64,000 nucleotides of DNA. It comes from Paenibacillus sp. FSL W8-0186. GTDB lineage: Bacteria; Bacillota; Bacilli; Paenibacillales; Paenibacillaceae. The position numbers were made by a program, and so were the translations under genes. The notes under the pieces are model-generated. The model saw only the letters and a list, made by a program, of their open reading frames with translations. It was not told the origin of the DNA and made no database searches. Positions within the stretch are counted from its first letter, which is position 1. Each line of letters begins with the position of its first letter. The DNA lies in assembly GCF_037969765.1 (NCBI RefSeq), contig NZ_CP150207.1:3093001-3157000 (forward strand), read 5' to 3'. Of the stretch, positions 1-5,495 are shown piece after piece.

Positions 1-1018
1 CGCTATTGCCCTCGGCGGTATAAATCGAAGAATAGGGCAGCCAGCTTGCTTCCTCCTTCGCCTGCTTCCCGTCCACATCCATATGGACGCGTACCTGGTC
101 CTTCTGGACATCGATGATTTTCCCTTCCAGCGAGGCTCCCGCCAGCGGCGTATTGAGAATTTTGTTCTGCCGGATGCCTCTCTCCGGGCTAAGTATGTAT
201 TGATGCCGCAGCTCTCCTCCTGTAAATCGCGTGACCGCAGAGAAGATGACCAGCTCCTGTCCCGCGAATGCCAGGATATCGCCTAGCGGATACCAGTTCA
301 CCAGGTCTACCGCATAGCGGGTAAAATCATATGGATGCAAATCCGCAGCTCCGTCACCACGCGCCTCCTCCAGAGCACTTAAATCACGCTGAATTGTATA
401 AGGGGTATCTTCCGGCAGCGGATGAAGCCGGCCCAGAGGGAGCCCCATCCACAGCTTCGGAGACGCTGCCGCAGATTCCGCAATGACGACAGCCCCAAAC
501 CGCGAAGCTACCCTCTTCAGAAATTGCCAGTCGGTCTCTTTATACTGCAGTGTAAACTGGCCGATACGCTGATGGCTCATGGCGTTATCGATAAAATCCG
601 ATCCAGGGTAAGCCGCTAGGACCGACTCTACTAATTCGCTGCATTTCATCTCCCGATTTTGGTAAGAACGGGTTCTGGCTTGAACATCCATCAGGGCTGA
701 GCAGGAAACAGCCGTCAACTCGACATAGTATATGCCCCGCACAACGCGAACCGCGATCGTGTCCAGAATCCCCTGGAACAGAGTACGCTTGGTCTTTCCC
801 TGCTCGTCCGTTTCTTCCAACGCGATCGGGTCCTGACTTCTAGCCTCTTGAATATAACGATCCTTGTCTTCCTCCGGCACAATCCCGGTTAACCACAGCC
901 TGGCGTGCTCACCTACGTTCCGCTCTAGTCGCAGCTCGCTAATTTGTTGTATGCGGTAAGGCCACACGAGCCGCACTTGGCCATATCCTGCTGCTGCCTG
1001 TGTCGACTCTGCTTGCAC
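1..1018 (-). CDS. VgrG/GPD-family spike protein (partial, 3' end outside window)
   Basis: Paralogue of the complete VgrG-like protein at 3403-4830. The start is GTG at 1018, six bases after an AGGAGGT ribosome binding site. 339 codons are open to the window edge. The product contains the phage late control D/GPD fold: residues such as YKETDWQFLKRVASRFG match YLETDWQFLTRLASRLR in the paralogue. Near the edge it enters the OB-fold segment (KDQVRVHMDVDGKQ, then YSSIYTAEGNS). By family knowledge such proteins form the trimeric hub/spike at the tip of contractile tails, T6SS or extracellular injection systems. It is the last gene seen in the minus-strand cassette, so tube, sheath or effector genes could lie beyond position 1. 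The C-terminal spike or effector extension cannot be seen. Family call is firm; the system type is inferred. Confidence 0.85.
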   Translation of the reverse strand, partial: MQAESTQAAAGYGQVRLVWPYRIQQISELRLERNVGEHARLWLTGIVPEEDKDRYIQEARSQDPIALEETDEQGKTKRTLFQGILDTIAVRVVRGIYYVELTAVSCSALMDVQARTRSYQNREMKCSELVESVLAAYPGSDFIDNAMSHQRIGQFTLQYKETDWQFLKRVASRFGAVVIAESAAASPKLWMGLPLGRLHPLPEDTPYTIQRDLSALEEARGDGAADLHPYDFTRYAVDLVNWYPLGDILAFAGQELVIFSAVTRFTGGELRHQYILSPERGIRQNKILNTPLAGASLEGKIIDVQKDQVRVHMDVDGKQAKEEASWLPYSSIYTAEGNS

Positions 1019-1102
1019 ATCATTACCTCCTGTCTGTCGCTAAATGATTCGTACAGCTGGTATTCATTTTCCAAAATAAATCCGTTCCTTTTCCTACCTG
1101 AC

Positions 1103-1543
1103 TCACCCCACCGACGTTCCATCGAGTTCCTGGCCGTCGTCCTCAATCTGAATAAGTCCGCCGTGGATGCAAAAGGTCGTGCAGTCGCTGAGCAGCGCTG
1201 GCTCTCCTTCAATCAGAACATCCTCTTTACCCCCGGCCCATTTCTCTGCAATGACGGGAACGCAAGGCGCTTTTTGCAAACCTTCGATATCCATCTCCCC
1301 GTTCTGCACCGCCGGATTCAGCATGCTGAAGCAGTTGCCAAAAGGGATGATATTCACCATAGGCTCATAATCCGCAACATTCATTTGCGCCTTCTCCTTC
1401 AAATGCACGCCATGACACAGCGGTGTCTTCAGCCGGTTCAATTGCGTTCCGCAGCTGCAGCTTAAGATTGCACCGGCCACGACATAGCTTTTCTGTTCTT
1501 CGCCTGCTGTTTCATTGGTGGAATATGCACCGACAATTTCCAT
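1103..1543 (-). CDS. DUF4280 (PAAR-like) protein
   Basis: 146-residue protein. The ATG at 1543 follows a GAGGAGG site and is preferred over an upstream in-frame start at 1585. It has the DUF4280 pattern: VVAGAILSCSCGT near the N-terminus, a central NIIPFGNCFSMLNPA, then PCVPVIAEKWAGG and a C-terminal CIHGGLIQIEDDGQ. DUF4280 proteins are PAAR-like and are thought to cap the spike of contractile systems or carry effectors. Several cysteines are evenly spread, as in the family. It lies between the two VgrG-like genes in one minus-strand run, which supports a tip role. No toxin domain is fused to it. Confidence 0.8.
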   Translation of the reverse strand: MEIVGAYSTNETAGEEQKSYVVAGAILSCSCGTQLNRLKTPLCHGVHLKEKAQMNVADYEPMVNIIPFGNCFSMLNPAVQNGEMDIEGLQKAPCVPVIAEKWAGGKEDVLIEGEPALLSDCTTFCIHGGLIQIEDDGQELDGTSVG

Positions 1544-1581
1544 CTTCGAACAACCTCCTCGCTCGGGTTCACTCAACTTTC

Positions 1582-2145
1582 TCAACTGCCGTAAGCAGCT
1601 TCGCTGCTTCCAGTCCCCGTCCGCTCAACGCGCGTTAACCGGATTCCGTCAAAATCTCTGCGCAATAGGCTTTCCGCCAGCGCCAGATGAACCAAAATCT
1701 GTGTCTCCGCAATACCGGCCACTTGGAACAGCATCCATGAATTTAGCTGTTCTCCCTCTACCACGAGACGACGAAGCGCCCCATCCGGCCGAAACTCGCT
1801 CTCCGCAGACAAACAGCCAACCCGCGGCGGGATCATCAGCCAATAGGTCTCGCTATGCTTGCGCCGAAGATCCAGCAAACGCACCGCGAAGAACTTCATC
1901 CGCGGACAGAATTTCTCGACTAATAGCTTCAGCCGGGTCGATAACAAGGGCAGCGGATGCTCCAAATAATCCGGGTATTGCACCCGCTCGGCGTCCTGGA
2001 TCGCAAATTGCAAGCTGACTTCATGGAGCGCATGACAGCCTTCCTCCGTCAGCATTTCTTTGGTGATCTCCGCAAAAACACCCACAGGAACAGCCGGGTC
2101 ATGCACACGCTCGTCCACGCTCAGCTTGAACAAATCAAGCTCCAT
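1582..2145 (-). CDS. Imm11/DUF1629-like protein
   Basis: 187 residues. The start overlaps the 3' end of the pentapeptide gene by 11 bases and is preceded by GAGAGGTG. The architecture resembles the Imm11 (DUF1629) family: a region about the size and expected values of residue stretches (CPRMKFFAVRLLD), a middle strand with YWLMIPPRVGCLSAE, and a C-terminal LFQVAGIAETQILVHLAL followed by FDGIRLTRV. Imm11-type proteins occur as immunity or accessory proteins near polymorphic toxins and T6SS-like loci. No partner toxin is seen in the window; the candidates are the pentapeptide protein or a gene beyond position 1. The family assignment is from pattern recognition only. Confidence 0.5.
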   Translation of the reverse strand: MELDLFKLSVDERVHDPAVPVGVFAEITKEMLTEEGCHALHEVSLQFAIQDAERVQYPDYLEHPLPLLSTRLKLLVEKFCPRMKFFAVRLLDLRRKHSETYWLMIPPRVGCLSAESEFRPDGALRRLVVEGEQLNSWMLFQVAGIAETQILVHLALAESLLRRDFDGIRLTRVERTGTGSSEAAYGS

Positions 2146-3358
2146 CGAGATTCACCTCTCTCTCGGCTTCGGTGAAATAAGCAAGCAAGGCTCGCCGCGC
2201 AGCCTGGGTACTGGTACCGGCAATGCTCTCATCGATGAGCGCTCCGTCCAGGTTGGCACCGGTAAAATCAGCGTCCGTTAATACCGCATTCGTAAAATCA
2301 GCACCCTGAACATTGGCTCCAATAAAGCTAGCACCAGTCAGATTCGCGCCGATAAACCGGGCACCGCGCAGATTCGCACTCGTGAAATCGGCCTCGGATA
2401 AATCCGCCCCGGCAAAATTCACGCCAATGAACCCGGGAATGTCCCATTCCTCCGTGCCTGCCGTACCGCTCATCCCTTCAACGAATCTGAAATCCGCCCC
2501 TTGCAGGCCGCAATACTCAAAGCTGGCTTCATGCAAGAAAGATCCTGAGAAGTTCGCGCCTGCAAGCATGCATCTCTCAAAGCGCGTGCCGACCAGCATG
2601 CATTCCGCCAGCTGGCTGTCCTTCAACCGCGTATCCTCGAACCGTGCGTAGCGAAAATCCAATGCGCTGTAATCCCCGTCAGCCAAATCCAGCTTGCGGT
2701 ATACCTCGTAAGCGTATTCGGCCTCTTTTCCCGCCTCAAGCCATTCCTTCACCTCTGCGCTGTCCAAATTCCGCTCGTCCAGCTTATAGACGACCTCGCT
2801 GTGATCCAAATACTCGCCTACGCGGATTTCAACCACCGCCTCCTTATCAAGCTGGATGAATTCCTCCAGCCGCACAGCTTCAGGCATCGCCTGGCGAATT
2901 AACGCAACGACATAGCCATGAACATAGGCGGCTTCATGCTGCATTTCCATCTCCACATCCATCTCGCTGATCTGTCCCGCATATTCCCGCCGTCTGGACA
3001 TGACCGCTTCCTTCCACTTCTCCAGCGGCAAGTAAGCCCATTTGGCCTCATAGCTGCATCTGACGGGCTGGGGATCCATAAACCAGTTCTCGTCCTGCGC
3101 CTCCCCTAAATACGTCATCTTTCCGTTTTGCATCGCCGTCCGCAGCATCGAATAGGTCAAATAGCCGATCCGTTCCTTCTTCCCCGCAGCCTGAAGCTCC
3201 AGCAGCTGCCGGCACCAGGCCCGAAACGAAGCGATGAACTCCCTGATCAGCTCCGGACGCCAGCCTTGATAAGTCTGTTCCAGCTGCTCGAGCATGATCT
3301 GCCGCTGCGGACGAATCACCTCGTCGCGAAAATGAGCCAGCGCACTTTCATTCCTCAA
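2135..3358 (-). CDS. Pentapeptide-repeat protein of the injection cassette
   Basis: 407 residues from a TTG start with an AAGGAGC site eight bases upstream. Residues 1 to about 230 form a mostly helical region I do not recognise, with conserved-looking tryptophans. From about residue 235 to the C-terminus it is built of A(D/N)LXX pentapeptide repeats, clearest in ADLSEADFTSANLRGARF and following units; these fold as a right-handed quadrilateral beta-helix. A short non-repeat loop (SGTAGTEEWDIPG) interrupts the helix. Such proteins recur in Gram-positive and Gram-negative spike clusters, possibly as adaptors or effectors; the role here is inferred from position between the VgrG-like and Imm11-like genes. 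Confidence 0.75.
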   Translation of the reverse strand: MRNESALAHFRDEVIRPQRQIMLEQLEQTYQGWRPELIREFIASFRAWCRQLLELQAAGKKERIGYLTYSMLRTAMQNGKMTYLGEAQDENWFMDPQPVRCSYEAKWAYLPLEKWKEAVMSRRREYAGQISEMDVEMEMQHEAAYVHGYVVALIRQAMPEAVRLEEFIQLDKEAVVEIRVGEYLDHSEVVYKLDERNLDSAEVKEWLEAGKEAEYAYEVYRKLDLADGDYSALDFRYARFEDTRLKDSQLAECMLVGTRFERCMLAGANFSGSFLHEASFEYCGLQGADFRFVEGMSGTAGTEEWDIPGFIGVNFAGADLSEADFTSANLRGARFIGANLTGASFIGANVQGADFTNAVLTDADFTGANLDGALIDESIAGTSTQAARRALLAYFTEAEREVNLDGA

Positions 3359-3402
3359 CTTGATCGCTCCTTTCTTGTCCTTCCTGAACCGGAGAACCAG
3401 GA

Positions 3403-4830
3403 TTAGTTCGTCTTCAGCTCCAGTCCCGAAATCACCGTGCGGCCGTCCATTTCGATGGTGCTCGTCTCGTTGCTCGTCAGCGTAATTTTCTCCTTGGCGG
3501 AAATCGTAATATTCTGCTCGGCATTCATCAGAATGTCCTCCTTCGCAACCAGCTTGATTTCCTTGCTGCTGGATATTTCGATGCCGCCGCTCTCGCTCAG
3601 GCGGATAAATATCTCGCCGTCCTTTCCTGTAATGACCACTTCCTCCGGCGTCATCATCAGCTCCTTGCCAGCGGCTGTCCGGAAATATTTGTGATCGGGG
3701 TTGCCCAGCTTGTTCGTCTCGCCTTCGTCGGAATTTTGCCGCACCGAGCTGCTGGCCACGCCCTCCTCCTCCCGGTTGCCGGGAAAATAGACGCGCACAT
3801 GGTCGCCGACCTCAGGCATGCAATACCAGCCGCTGTTCCCCTCGGCCGTATATACCGAGGCATACGGAAAGCAATGCGCATCGCTGGCCTGCTGGACATC
3901 GTCGATGGCGAGGTGAACTTTGACCGTGTCCTTCTGTACGGCAATGACTTGTCCCTGAATGGAGACGCCGATAATTTGATCATTGTAAAAAGGATTCGGC
4001 CGCAGCCCCTCCCGGGAGCTTAAAGTATAGCGGTGGGTCAGCTGACCTTGCTTCATTTCGGTCCATGCCTCAATGACATACAGCAAGGACCCTTTGAACT
4101 GGACAGTATCCCCAAGCTGGAACACCCGCTCCGACTCTACTTCGTAATAGATATAGTCGTTCTCCTGGACCTTGGCGCTTGTGTTCTGCGTCGTATGGCG
4201 ATACGGGTCCATCCGCTTCGTGATTTGATAGTGGCTCTCCTTAATCGCTCCTTTGATGCTGCCATCCGGCAAGCCGAAGAAGAATTTAGGCTCGTCAAAG
4301 ACGACCGAAGGAATCAGCACGGTGCGCAGCCGCGAGGCCAGCCGGGTCAGGAACTGCCAATCCGTCTCCAGGTACTGCATCGTGAACCGCCCGATTGCCC
4401 CGCCTCCGGTCGCCTCGTCGATAATGTCAATGCCCGGGTAAGGCGCTTTGACCACATTCAGCAGGTCGGGATACGTCATATTTTTATTCTGGAAGGAACG
4501 GCTTCTTTTTTTCACATCCAGCTCAAAGGTATGCGACACCGCTTCGACTTCCAAATGATATACGCCCCGGACGGCCTTCACGGCAATGTTCCGCACGATG
4601 CCGCAGAACAGCGGGGACAGTGTGCCCTGCTCGTTGCGCTGGCTGATCTTTACGGTGGTTCTGGCATCGCACATGAGCACATAGCTGTCCTTTACCTCCT
4701 CAGACACAATGCCCGTGAATTTCAAACAAGCGTGATCATTCACTTTCTTCGCAATCGTCAGCTCGAGCAAATTCACCAGCTCAAACGGGCTGACGACCAG
4801 ACTGTCGTAAGTAAGAGCTGCCTCTGTCAT
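3403..4830 (-). CDS. VgrG/Pvc8-family contractile injection spike protein
   Basis: 475 residues, ATG after GGAGGTG, overlapping the upstream gene by 4 bases (translational coupling). Residues about 1-285 resemble phage late control D/gp27 (LETDWQFLTRLASRLR, PYRHTTQNTSAKVQ). About 290-375 is a gp5-type OB fold (GQVIAVQKDTVKVHLAID, WYCMPEVGDHVRVYFPG). Residues 385-470 are short alternating strands (IKLVAKEDILMNAEQNITI) typical of a trimeric beta-helix spike. These are the hub and puncturing parts of T6SS, phage tails and extracellular injection systems. No C-terminal toxin is attached. Length is near the minimal size for the family. It is paralogous to the protein at 1-1018. Confidence 0.88.
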   Translation of the reverse strand: MTEAALTYDSLVVSPFELVNLLELTIAKKVNDHACLKFTGIVSEEVKDSYVLMCDARTTVKISQRNEQGTLSPLFCGIVRNIAVKAVRGVYHLEVEAVSHTFELDVKKRSRSFQNKNMTYPDLLNVVKAPYPGIDIIDEATGGGAIGRFTMQYLETDWQFLTRLASRLRTVLIPSVVFDEPKFFFGLPDGSIKGAIKESHYQITKRMDPYRHTTQNTSAKVQENDYIYYEVESERVFQLGDTVQFKGSLLYVIEAWTEMKQGQLTHRYTLSSREGLRPNPFYNDQIIGVSIQGQVIAVQKDTVKVHLAIDDVQQASDAHCFPYASVYTAEGNSGWYCMPEVGDHVRVYFPGNREEEGVASSSVRQNSDEGETNKLGNPDHKYFRTAAGKELMMTPEEVVITGKDGEIFIRLSESGGIEISSSKEIKLVAKEDILMNAEQNITISAKEKITLTSNETSTIEMDGRTVISGLELKTN

Positions 4831-5495
4831 ACTTCCGCACCTCCCTGTCCCGATTCCCTGAGGTCAGAAGGTGCATCTTTGTCCGTCATACGCAGCGATG
4901 CCATGATGCTCTTAGCTACCGGCCTCCAATCGTTCATCTCTTGATCCAGACAATTGAAGGTGCACATGAGCGCCCGGCCCTCGAGCGAAAGGAAAAACAT
5001 GAAGTTATAAATGCTTCCATTCATCACCGGCGTGACGAACTCGCAATAACCGACGGCTGCATTAGGCGACTGAACTACGCCGTCTCCGTACCATTTGAGA
5101 ATTTTTTGCGTTCGGCGGAGAATCTGCGTGATGCCTTGCGTGAATTCCTCAATCTCCCTGCCCCGCACCGGAGTTGCAGTATGATTGAAGGCGACATTAA
5201 TCGTGCTAAGCGCGTTGGTGTAGATCAGCTGGGGTCTGCGCTCTGACGGGTACTTCAAAGCTGCCATTTGCGAGGTCATCGGCTTGAACATGCTGGGCAT
5301 CACCAAAGACAACTGATCCTCGAACAAAGCGTACCGCTGAAAAGACAGCGTCTCCCGCCCTACCTGTACAAACGGCTGATCCAGCTTCACCTCGGCAAAA
5401 TCCTGCCACGTCTTCCCGGCCGCCGCATTCTCCTGCGTCTGCTGGGCTTGCTGCCTCTGCAGCATGGCGATCATCGTTTCATCCAAATGCTTCAC
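4827..5495 (-). CDS. DcrB/EagR-like protein of the injection cassette
   Basis: 222 residues, GTG start after GGAAGGAG. The first gene of the minus-strand spike cassette. After a glutamine-rich N-terminal helix (about residues 1-30) the protein alternates strands and helices, with FEDQLSLVMPSMFKPM, STINVAFNHT and a C-terminal ALMCTFNCLDQEMNDWRPVAKSI segment. This layout recalls DcrB/DUF1795 proteins, which in Proteobacterial T6SS (EagR) act as effector chaperones. No signal peptide. The homology is a fold-level impression and not a motif match. Position immediately before, and overlapping, the VgrG-like gene agrees with a chaperone or adaptor role. Confidence 0.45.
   Translation of the reverse strand: MKHLDETMIAMLQRQQAQQTQENAAAGKTWQDFAEVKLDQPFVQVGRETLSFQRYALFEDQLSLVMPSMFKPMTSQMAALKYPSERRPQLIYTNALSTINVAFNHTATPVRGREIEEFTQGITQILRRTQKILKWYGDGVVQSPNAAVGYCEFVTPVMNGSIYNFMFFLSLEGRALMCTFNCLDQEMNDWRPVAKSIMASLRMTDKDAPSDLRESGQGGAEV

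Follow-up and report, generated by a model that had tools for sequence, protein, structure and literature searches.

A VgrG–DUF4280 cassette of Paenibacillus and the candidate injection-machine core that accompanies it

The first 5495 nucleotides of a 64,000-nucleotide stretch of Paenibacillus sp. FSL W8-0186 (positions 3,093,001–3,157,000 of the single-contig 5.66 Mb genome; hereafter the window) carry six minus-strand genes, which we read as an auxiliary cassette of a type VI secretion system (T6SS)-like, probably contractile injection machine of the Bacillota; from sequence comparisons we put the probability of this reading at roughly two in three. From upstream to downstream the genes encode a DcrB-like protein, a VgrG, a pentapeptide protein, a 187-residue protein (here '187'), a DUF4280 protein and a second VgrG. 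A conserved core locus is present in one copy at 1,310,014–1,335,875 of the same genome, about 1.76 Mb from the window and adjoining a sister cassette, and the window therefore holds an auxiliary spike/effector cassette of a core encoded elsewhere. At the level of sequence the spike, the tip, the DcrB-like protein, the fusion of a toxin to VgrG, the swapping of toxin tips, the immunity-type genes and the companionship with a conserved core are demonstrated; the contractile nature of the machine is argued below.

The original prediction had called the six genes a T6SS-like spike cassette in a member of the Bacillota and had placed the tube and sheath genes beyond position 1. The kind of cassette (spike, tip and chaperone) has stood; the place of the tube and sheath genes has not. 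Profiles of 18 core and cassette families found no core gene in the 38 kb to the left of the window, where the only matches are to cassette families: a pentapeptide protein and the remainder of the VgrG toxin. A lack of contractile structural genes within about 30 kb had been named as what would speak against the prediction; this is literally what the left flank shows, yet a candidate core exists elsewhere in the chromosome. The search for known sheaths by hidden Markov model (HMM) that had been proposed does return two phage-type sheath genes (PF04984, at 1.382 and 3.970 Mb only), which lie away from the cassettes, and no VipB/TssC. It misses the candidate sheath of the core because that protein is recognised by none of the libraries used, and we abandoned the phage-type sheath search as a route to the core.

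Association of cassette and core

The cassette is a repeated unit. Two further copies stand in the same genome, at about 0.75 Mb (L007) and 1.33 Mb (L008), making three in all; no core adjoins the cassette of the window or that of L007. The usual order, judged by eye, is DcrB–VgrG–pentapeptide–'187'–DUF4280–VgrG/toxin–small genes. We compared 64 regions: 56 around DUF4280 genes of related genomes and, from the own genome, the window, three cassette regions and four prophage regions. VgrG-family genes are found in 45 of them, DUF4280 alone in eight and nothing from the cassette in 11. As the cassette recurs twice in its genome and VgrG-family genes occur in 45 of the 64 regions, the arrangement is far beyond chance.

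Of 148 sampled genomes of the family, 45 carry DUF4280. The candidate sheath occurs in 29 of these 45 and in none of the 103 DUF4280-negative genomes (p = 1.2e-19; this and the following companionship p values ignore kinship). A VgrG-family gene stands beside DUF4280 in all 23 of the 29 sheath-positive genomes that were inspected, but in only one of the 15 inspected among the 16 DUF4280-positive, sheath-negative genomes (p = 1.6e-9). That sole exception, G130, has cassettes together with kinase, VWA-like, PP2C-TPR and X428-like open reading frames (ORFs) and no sheath or tube at the expected place; this locus looks like a decayed core. In 11 of the 14 other sheath-negative genomes DUF4280 shares its contig with a phage-type sheath 8–27 kb away and has no VgrG-family neighbour by the profile used, so these genes would form a separate lineage of the extracellular contractile injection system (eCIS) type. 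A sample of the phylum (398 genomes) gave DUF4280 in 12 of 13 sheath-positive genomes versus seven of 385 others (p = 2.3e-17; removing four genomes that were sampled twice gives 4.2e-12). Within the genus of the window the candidate sheath is patchy, being present in four of 15 genomes, and such patchy spread within genera argues against simple descent.

Ten regions farther upstream of cassettes (the own one and nine others, chosen because their cassettes had been seen to adjoin an Hsp70-like or X257 gene) all contain a candidate sheath and a tube, the tube having been found by tblastn. A scan of named genomes for the candidate sheath gave 230 relatives, and the following counts cover the 80 best, of which 65 loci are fully flanked. 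Within 10 kb, the sheath is present in 80 loci, the tube, DnaJ, FHA, FHA2 and PP2C genes in 79 each, X428, X245 and PP2C-TPR in 78 each, the kinase in 72, the Hsp70-like gene in 63 and the VWA-like gene in 57. The nine genes from the sheath to X245 stand in a single order in all 65 fully flanked loci, and the sheath family is 76–98% identical across these best 80 of 230. Their hosts are Paenibacillus, Brevibacillus, Cohnella, Aneurinibacillus, Sporosarcina, Lysinibacillus, Solibacillus, a Clostridium and others; the own candidate sheath is 98% identical to its counterpart in Paenibacillus sp. EZ-K15. Beyond these, 34 of 300 sampled genomes of the Clostridia-type class to which genome G391 belongs have a relative of the candidate sheath, some near the own form and some strongly divergent. 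In the alignment of 26 sheath proteins (A10), nine are only 22–27% identical to the own protein; the deep alignments omit L243, L244, L251 and L252, where no sheath ORF was called, and L238, which has in-frame stops.

Two divergent Clostridia, G391 and G521 (about 59 kb each), keep '187'–sheath–tube–VgrG–X428–X245–Hsp70-like–X257; in G521 additional genes separate X245 from the Hsp70-like gene. In front of this set G391 has a 595-residue DUF4280 gene and G521 a 57%-identical relative with no match to the DUF4280 model. The kinase, FHA, PP2C and DnaJ genes are not adjacent in either genome, and the minimal machine therefore seems to consist of the eight or nine other genes. The tail of the roughly 595-residue DUF4280-type protein that precedes '187' and the sheath in these genomes (L215–L218) looks AHH-nuclease-like by eye, and more Hsp70-like-looking ORFs were seen by eye nearby in G521. 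In six regions of the Clostridia class (L250, L254, L255, L256, L259 and L261) a tandem pair of tube genes adjoins the candidate sheath.

The core proteins

The order of the own core is given in Table 1; all of its tagged genes lie on one strand except the VWA-like gene. The names kinase, DnaJ, FHA, PP2C and TPR are Pfam names above cut-off for at least one model, whereas the PP2C part of the TPR protein was named from a profile comparison with TagF, the VWA-like and FHA2 proteins by eye, and X428, X245 and X257, which belong to no family in the library scans made, by length.

The tube family (141–143 residues) resembles Hcp. Matches to Pfam TssD/Hcp at E ≤ 0.1 were obtained for 17 of its 31 members (best 3.2e-5) and to T4 gp19 for two (best 0.06), and the 31-member profile gave one plausible match among solved structures, Hcp1 (6bdc, 0.0028). 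The T6SS type of the Bacteroidetes is T6SSiii, in which Hcp is TssD. On four viral-filed contigs the tube domain is fused to about 240 further residues and is followed by an ORF of 135–137 residues; these fusions recall the Hcp-fused effectors that T6SSs have.

The neighbouring protein, of 722–751 residues in its family, is the candidate contractile sheath, a role that we infer from size, from constant presence and from a gene position immediately ahead of the tube. Parvovirus NS1 matches of the sheath profile covered 35–41 residues only and were gone with a deeper alignment; they are chance. Relatives of the candidate sheath were found in none of the viral contigs, phage records or plasmids searched, and relatives of the window VgrG in none of the phage records searched.

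Hydropathy of one representative of each family indicated two membrane segments in the VWA-like protein and one each in PP2C, PP2C-TPR and FHA2, and no membrane segment in the sheath, tube, X428, X245, X257 or Hsp70-like proteins. The HPD motif of the J-domain is present in all nine DnaJ proteins checked. T6SS profiles were built from seven annotated plasmid loci, an unannotated eighth being left out, and run against 1836 core ORFs. They matched VgrG and the part of TagF that is PP2C, and gave a single TssK match. Taking the Hsp70-like protein for TssK was rejected: the weak profile signals, this match (0.0017) among them, lie within the actin-like domain, and the match was judged spurious. 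HMMs for TssB, TssC and TssH gave no match in the 1836 core ORFs, nor did the phage-sheath HMM. In the own genome the VipB family is absent, and the DUF4255/Pvc16 tail terminator gave no match, the control genomes likewise being without one.

Table 1. Genes of the window cassette (window coordinates), make-up of the core locus in the same genome and tube-domain fusions on viral-filed contigs
Feature	Coordinates	Strand	Basis or remark
DcrB/DUF1795-like protein, 222 aa, candidate EagR-type loading chaperone	4827..5495	-	Family profile A8
VgrG-like spike protein, toxin-free, 475 aa	3403..4830	-	Phage_GPD 1.5e-8
407-aa protein, N-terminal domain and C-terminal pentapeptide repeats	2135..3358	-	Pentapeptide 4.3e-30, residues about 220-380
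187-aa protein ('187'), called Imm11-like earlier, probable machine part	1582..2145	-	No library family
DUF4280 PAAR-like spike tip, 160 aa from the TTG	1103..1585	-	PF14107 4.6e-31, full length
Second VgrG, N-terminal part	2..1018	-	Phage_GPD 8.6e-11; cut by window edge
Own core, first part: Ser/Thr kinase (318 aa), VWA-like (700, opposite strand), candidate sheath (745), tube (143)			
Own core, second part: DnaJ-domain (153), FHA2 (179), FHA (172), PP2C (297), PP2C-TPR (611)			
Own core, third part: X428, X245, Hsp70/actin-like (882), X257 (259)			
Cassette of own core: DcrB, VgrG, pentapeptide-family protein, '187', DUF4280, VgrG toxin			
Tube-domain fusion on viral contig	L263:2935-4146		
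Tube-domain fusion on viral contig	L264:3001-4146		
Tube-domain fusion on viral contig	L265:3001-4143		
Tube-domain fusion on viral contig	L266:3001-4143		

Known systems and rival explanations

The cassette and core share with T6SSs a VgrG-type spike (Phage_GPD; the profile of the VgrG family matches that of Proteobacterial T6SS VgrG with a probability of 96.9 over 426 columns), a PAAR-like tip (DUF4280), VgrG-fused toxins, a candidate Hcp-like tube whose nearest solved relative is Hcp1, a DcrB/EagR-like protein adjoining VgrG, and the presence of kinase, FHA and PP2C genes, which the Azospirillum T6SS locus has as well. They differ in that TssA, B, C, E, F, G, H, L and M are not recognised in the core ORFs by profiles, in that a single 722-residue candidate sheath stands where T6SSs have TssB and TssC, in that ClpV/TssH is absent by HMM, with an Hsp70/actin-like and usually a J-domain protein in its place, and in their Gram-positive hosts. 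With the eCISs of the Afp/PVC-like kind they share a VgrG-like spike, and a DUF4280 gene is found near eCIS-type sheaths in the same family; however, the core has no recognisable Phage_sheath_1, although this model does find the eCIS-type sheaths of the family, and it has kinase/FHA/PP2C genes and VgrG-fused toxin cassettes. Since several of the defining features fail or cannot be demonstrated, the system should not be filed as T6SS or eCIS.

Membrane-linked contractile injection systems (CISs) are described for haloarchaea, with contact killing, and for Streptomyces (PMC11566945, PMC12237407). They set a precedent for anchoring such a machine to the cytoplasmic membrane; by their abstracts they are CIS-type systems. 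A 2021 paper describes, in the sections cited here, DUF4280-type genes beside Phage_GPD in Firmicutes with conserved T6SS/eCIS genes not nearby (PMC8651086), and a 2016 note had raised the same possibility of an unidentified phage-like translocation system in Gram-positives (PMC5349215). The window cassette is of the same kind, whereas tube, sheath, ATPase and regulators are not named in the 2016 note or in the cited sections of the 2021 paper. The core is a strong candidate for the missing machine of this system, and the present work provides concrete candidates with exact coordinates for its tube, sheath, baseplate, ATPase and regulators. We found no published identification of the rest of the system in a search that covered preprints and subscription papers thinly, so that a report may exist that we have not seen. 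Cassette and core travel together, and the question can be tested by deletion of single genes. The polymorphic toxin systems, as described in the parts of PMC3482391 cited here, also resemble the cassettes: a constant N-terminal carrier, a swapped, variable C-terminal toxin and adjacent immunity genes behind it are all found, but the carrier here is a Gram-positive VgrG-type spike tied to a specific core outside the libraries.

We suggest that the Hcp-like protein would stack as a tube, likely capped by VgrG and the DUF4280 cone, and that the 722–751-residue protein would form a contractile sheath round it, while X428, X245 and X257 may make up the baseplate. The membrane-anchored VWA-like, FHA2, PP2C and PP2C-TPR proteins could hold or gate the machine under Ser/Thr phosphorylation, as in some T6SSs, and the part of ClpV in assembly or recycling may fall to the Hsp70/actin-like protein, which most loci pair with a J-domain protein. 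Each shot would be tipped by the VgrG trimer and DUF4280 cone of one cassette, with the DcrB-like protein helping to load, and would deliver a VgrG-fused toxin to a neighbouring cell while the immunity genes spare kin; three cassettes and one core would give one machine with different warheads. A wider reading, which we hold tentatively and at somewhat less than even odds, goes further: the Bacillota would own a separate T6SS-like class, in the Paenibacillaceae, in Lysinibacillus and its allies and in the Clostridia; its single 722-residue sheath, beyond sequence recognition and perhaps a fused TssB/TssC equivalent, would surround the Hcp-like tube; a dedicated Hsp70/actin-like ATPase and a J-domain helper would recycle the sheath instead of ClpV; Ser/Thr phosphorylation would gate the machine, and interchangeable VgrG–DUF4280 cassettes in the chromosome, such as that of the window, would arm it. 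If the candidates named here are right, contact killing by injection machines would be widespread in soil Bacillota and there would be a second solution for sheath recycling besides the AAA+ unfoldases.

Several results weigh against a contractile, T6SS-like machine. The own tube scores 16.5 bits (0.0081) against Pfam TssD/Hcp, below the cut-off of 25.8, and is not found by Proteobacterial Hcp profiles. The candidate sheath has no family in Pfam, NCBIfam and PHROGs (own protein) or in profiles of the Protein Data Bank (PDB), and in Pfam nothing recurs across 26 relatives beyond single stray matches. Profile–profile comparison of the sheath with TssB, TssC and phage sheath was null; two truly related pairs, TssC–phage sheath and Hcp–phage tube, failed equally at the same depth, and the comparison therefore has no power either way. 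For a reading of the sheath as TssB plus TssC there is a lead only: two TssB-like stretches align in order at low threshold, but against decoys (reversed profiles and windows of 200 residues) they rank only fifth of 286, and when the alignment was deepened a decoy outscored TssB, which took second place. The profiles built here find no TssE, F, G, L, M or TssH in the core, and the Hsp70-like protein scores 16.9 bits against Pfam HSP70, below the cut-off of 20.6. Finally, a phage-type sheath gene is present in all 29 core-positive versus 79 of 119 other genomes (p = 4e-5).

This last association bears on the possibility that an eCIS or PBSX-like prophage tail supplies the sheath and tube and that the 1.31 Mb locus does something else. 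The two phage-type sheath genes of the own genome and the DUF4280 genes near eCIS-type sheaths in the family point the same way; yet phage-type sheaths occur in 108 of the 148 genomes and do not predict the cassette, which is found in one of 15 core-negative, DUF4280-positive genomes, and the DUF4280 genes that lie near them in 11 of 14 others without a VgrG-family neighbour would be the separate lineage described above. The core has an Hcp-like tube of its own, which stands beside VgrG in the divergent Clostridia. We read the co-occurrence as incidental because no phage-type sheath lies closer to the own core than 46 kb, because the distance exceeds 100 kb or the sheath is on another contig in seven further genomes looked up (G062, G065, G090, G099, G122, G123 and G146), and because nine core-negative genomes of genus g7 also have phage-type sheaths. 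We regard this explanation as distinctly improbable.

Unlikely, too, is that the tube and spike are real and the machine is non-contractile, with the 722-residue protein serving as a cap, a scaffold or a tape-measure-like part and the VgrG toxins being exported or surface-displayed through a different pathway, for example a type VII system. That sheath homology is undetectable in libraries and profiles would be expected from it, and EssC-like and WXG100-like ORFs were noted by eye upstream of the own core (L092); such ORFs were, however, not seen by eye in the listed upstream regions of G099 and G122, and the conserved block begins at the kinase. With its count and order of genes (a sheath-size protein, a tube, a VgrG, baseplate-size proteins and an ATPase-like protein), the set would most resemble a contractile tail. 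A prophage tail that is domesticated or decaying and has no injection function would be in keeping with the general phage derivation of the VgrG (Phage_GPD) and tube folds and with the decay in G130, but relatives of the candidate sheath and of the window VgrG are missing from the records searched for each, the 76–98% identity of the sheath family in the best 80 of 230 loci points to strong selection, and the toxin tips are being swapped; we consider this explanation very improbable.

Cassette genes, toxin tips and immunity genes

The six genes had been described as mostly overlapping or closely spaced, and the ORF listing has all of them in place, with overlaps of 4 nt (4827–5495/3403–4830), 11 nt (2135–3358/1582–2145) and 4 nt (1582–2145/1103–1585). 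Both VgrG labels, the pentapeptide label and the DUF4280 label are borne out by the Pfam matches in Table 1. The DcrB label holds by family profile, an 18-member alignment (A8) matching solved DcrB at 8.1e-7 and a DUF1795 protein at 1.3e-6, while single members barely match Pfam DcrB (one of 18, E = 0.038). A match of this profile to PDB 'SAKe6BR' covers a short stretch and was read as chance. The DcrB-like gene heads many cassettes and is elsewhere missing or relocated beside DUF4280; the window protein has no transmembrane segment by hydropathy. It would act as a loading chaperone, and cargo loading by its pairing with VgrG, as suggested originally, is a reasonable guess.

For '187', the Imm11-like label finds no support in Pfam, NCBIfam or PHROGs, where the protein has no family, and is probably a misnomer. 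Its relatives stand directly before the candidate sheath gene in divergent Clostridia (E = 1.2e-14 and 3.8e-13, with further ones found), and the protein is for that reason probably a machine part rather than an immunity protein. The matches of the 475-residue VgrG to Phage_base_V and DUF2345 in Pfam are weak and under cut-off. Relatives of the 407-residue pentapeptide protein in some cassettes have just 204–222 residues, too few for both parts, so that the N-terminal domain is probably the constant one. The window DUF4280 protein contains eight Cys residues, and DUF4280 has been described as a metal-binding PAAR-like tip (PMC5349215).

The second VgrG runs left past the window; its full ORF (3,093,976 down to 3,091,289 of the own genome; L005:17289–19976) encodes 895 residues and ends in a Tox-GHH nuclease domain (4.8e-19). 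Downstream lie genes for Imm47 (7.2e-110), a Tdi1_C/GAD-like immunity protein (6e-24) and a pentapeptide protein. The G+C content is 33.6% in the immunity-gene stretch (L005:11001–17250) versus 54.4% in the cassette, as expected for acquired immunity genes. Ten ORFs from the flanks of the own cassettes were scanned; five have no family and one (window:6023–6469) has a below-cut-off match only.

A close relative (L069) has the same cassette as the window. Compared in blocks of 50 columns, the two VgrG toxins share 90–100% identity over 13 of the first 14, after which identity drops to 74% in one block and to 11–20% in the last four; this apparent replacement of the tip is typical of polymorphic toxins. 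Ten tips hand-chosen from 47 VgrG-family ORFs of at least 660 residues were scanned: six have known toxin families and four have none. The families are Tox-GHH, Tox-HDC, colicin DNase/WHH, YwqJ deaminase, RHS with NucA/NucB and metallopeptidase 4.

Some further arrangements were noted. In eight regions (L037, L039, L042, L043, L044, L050, L054 and L060) DUF4280 stands in a second context in which VgrG-family genes are absent; most have ORFs of 914–919 residues alongside, often with ORFs of 550–629 residues too, and in several genomes a phage-type sheath lies 19–27 kb off. These are probably eCIS loci of the same family. In G065, of the same genus as the window, several DUF4280/VgrG cassettes within about 80 kb (C1:4,922,000–5,000,500; L077–L080) lead to the core locus. 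Between the own Hsp70-like gene and X257 (L008:2998–5710) lie genes for a 181-residue protein with two predicted membrane segments and for four membrane proteins that look RDD-like by eye. Upstream of the own core, at 1,283,001–1,303,000 (L092:5152–18232), the ORFs noted by eye are a Tad-type-pilus-like set, an EssC-like ATPase and a WXG100-like ORF.

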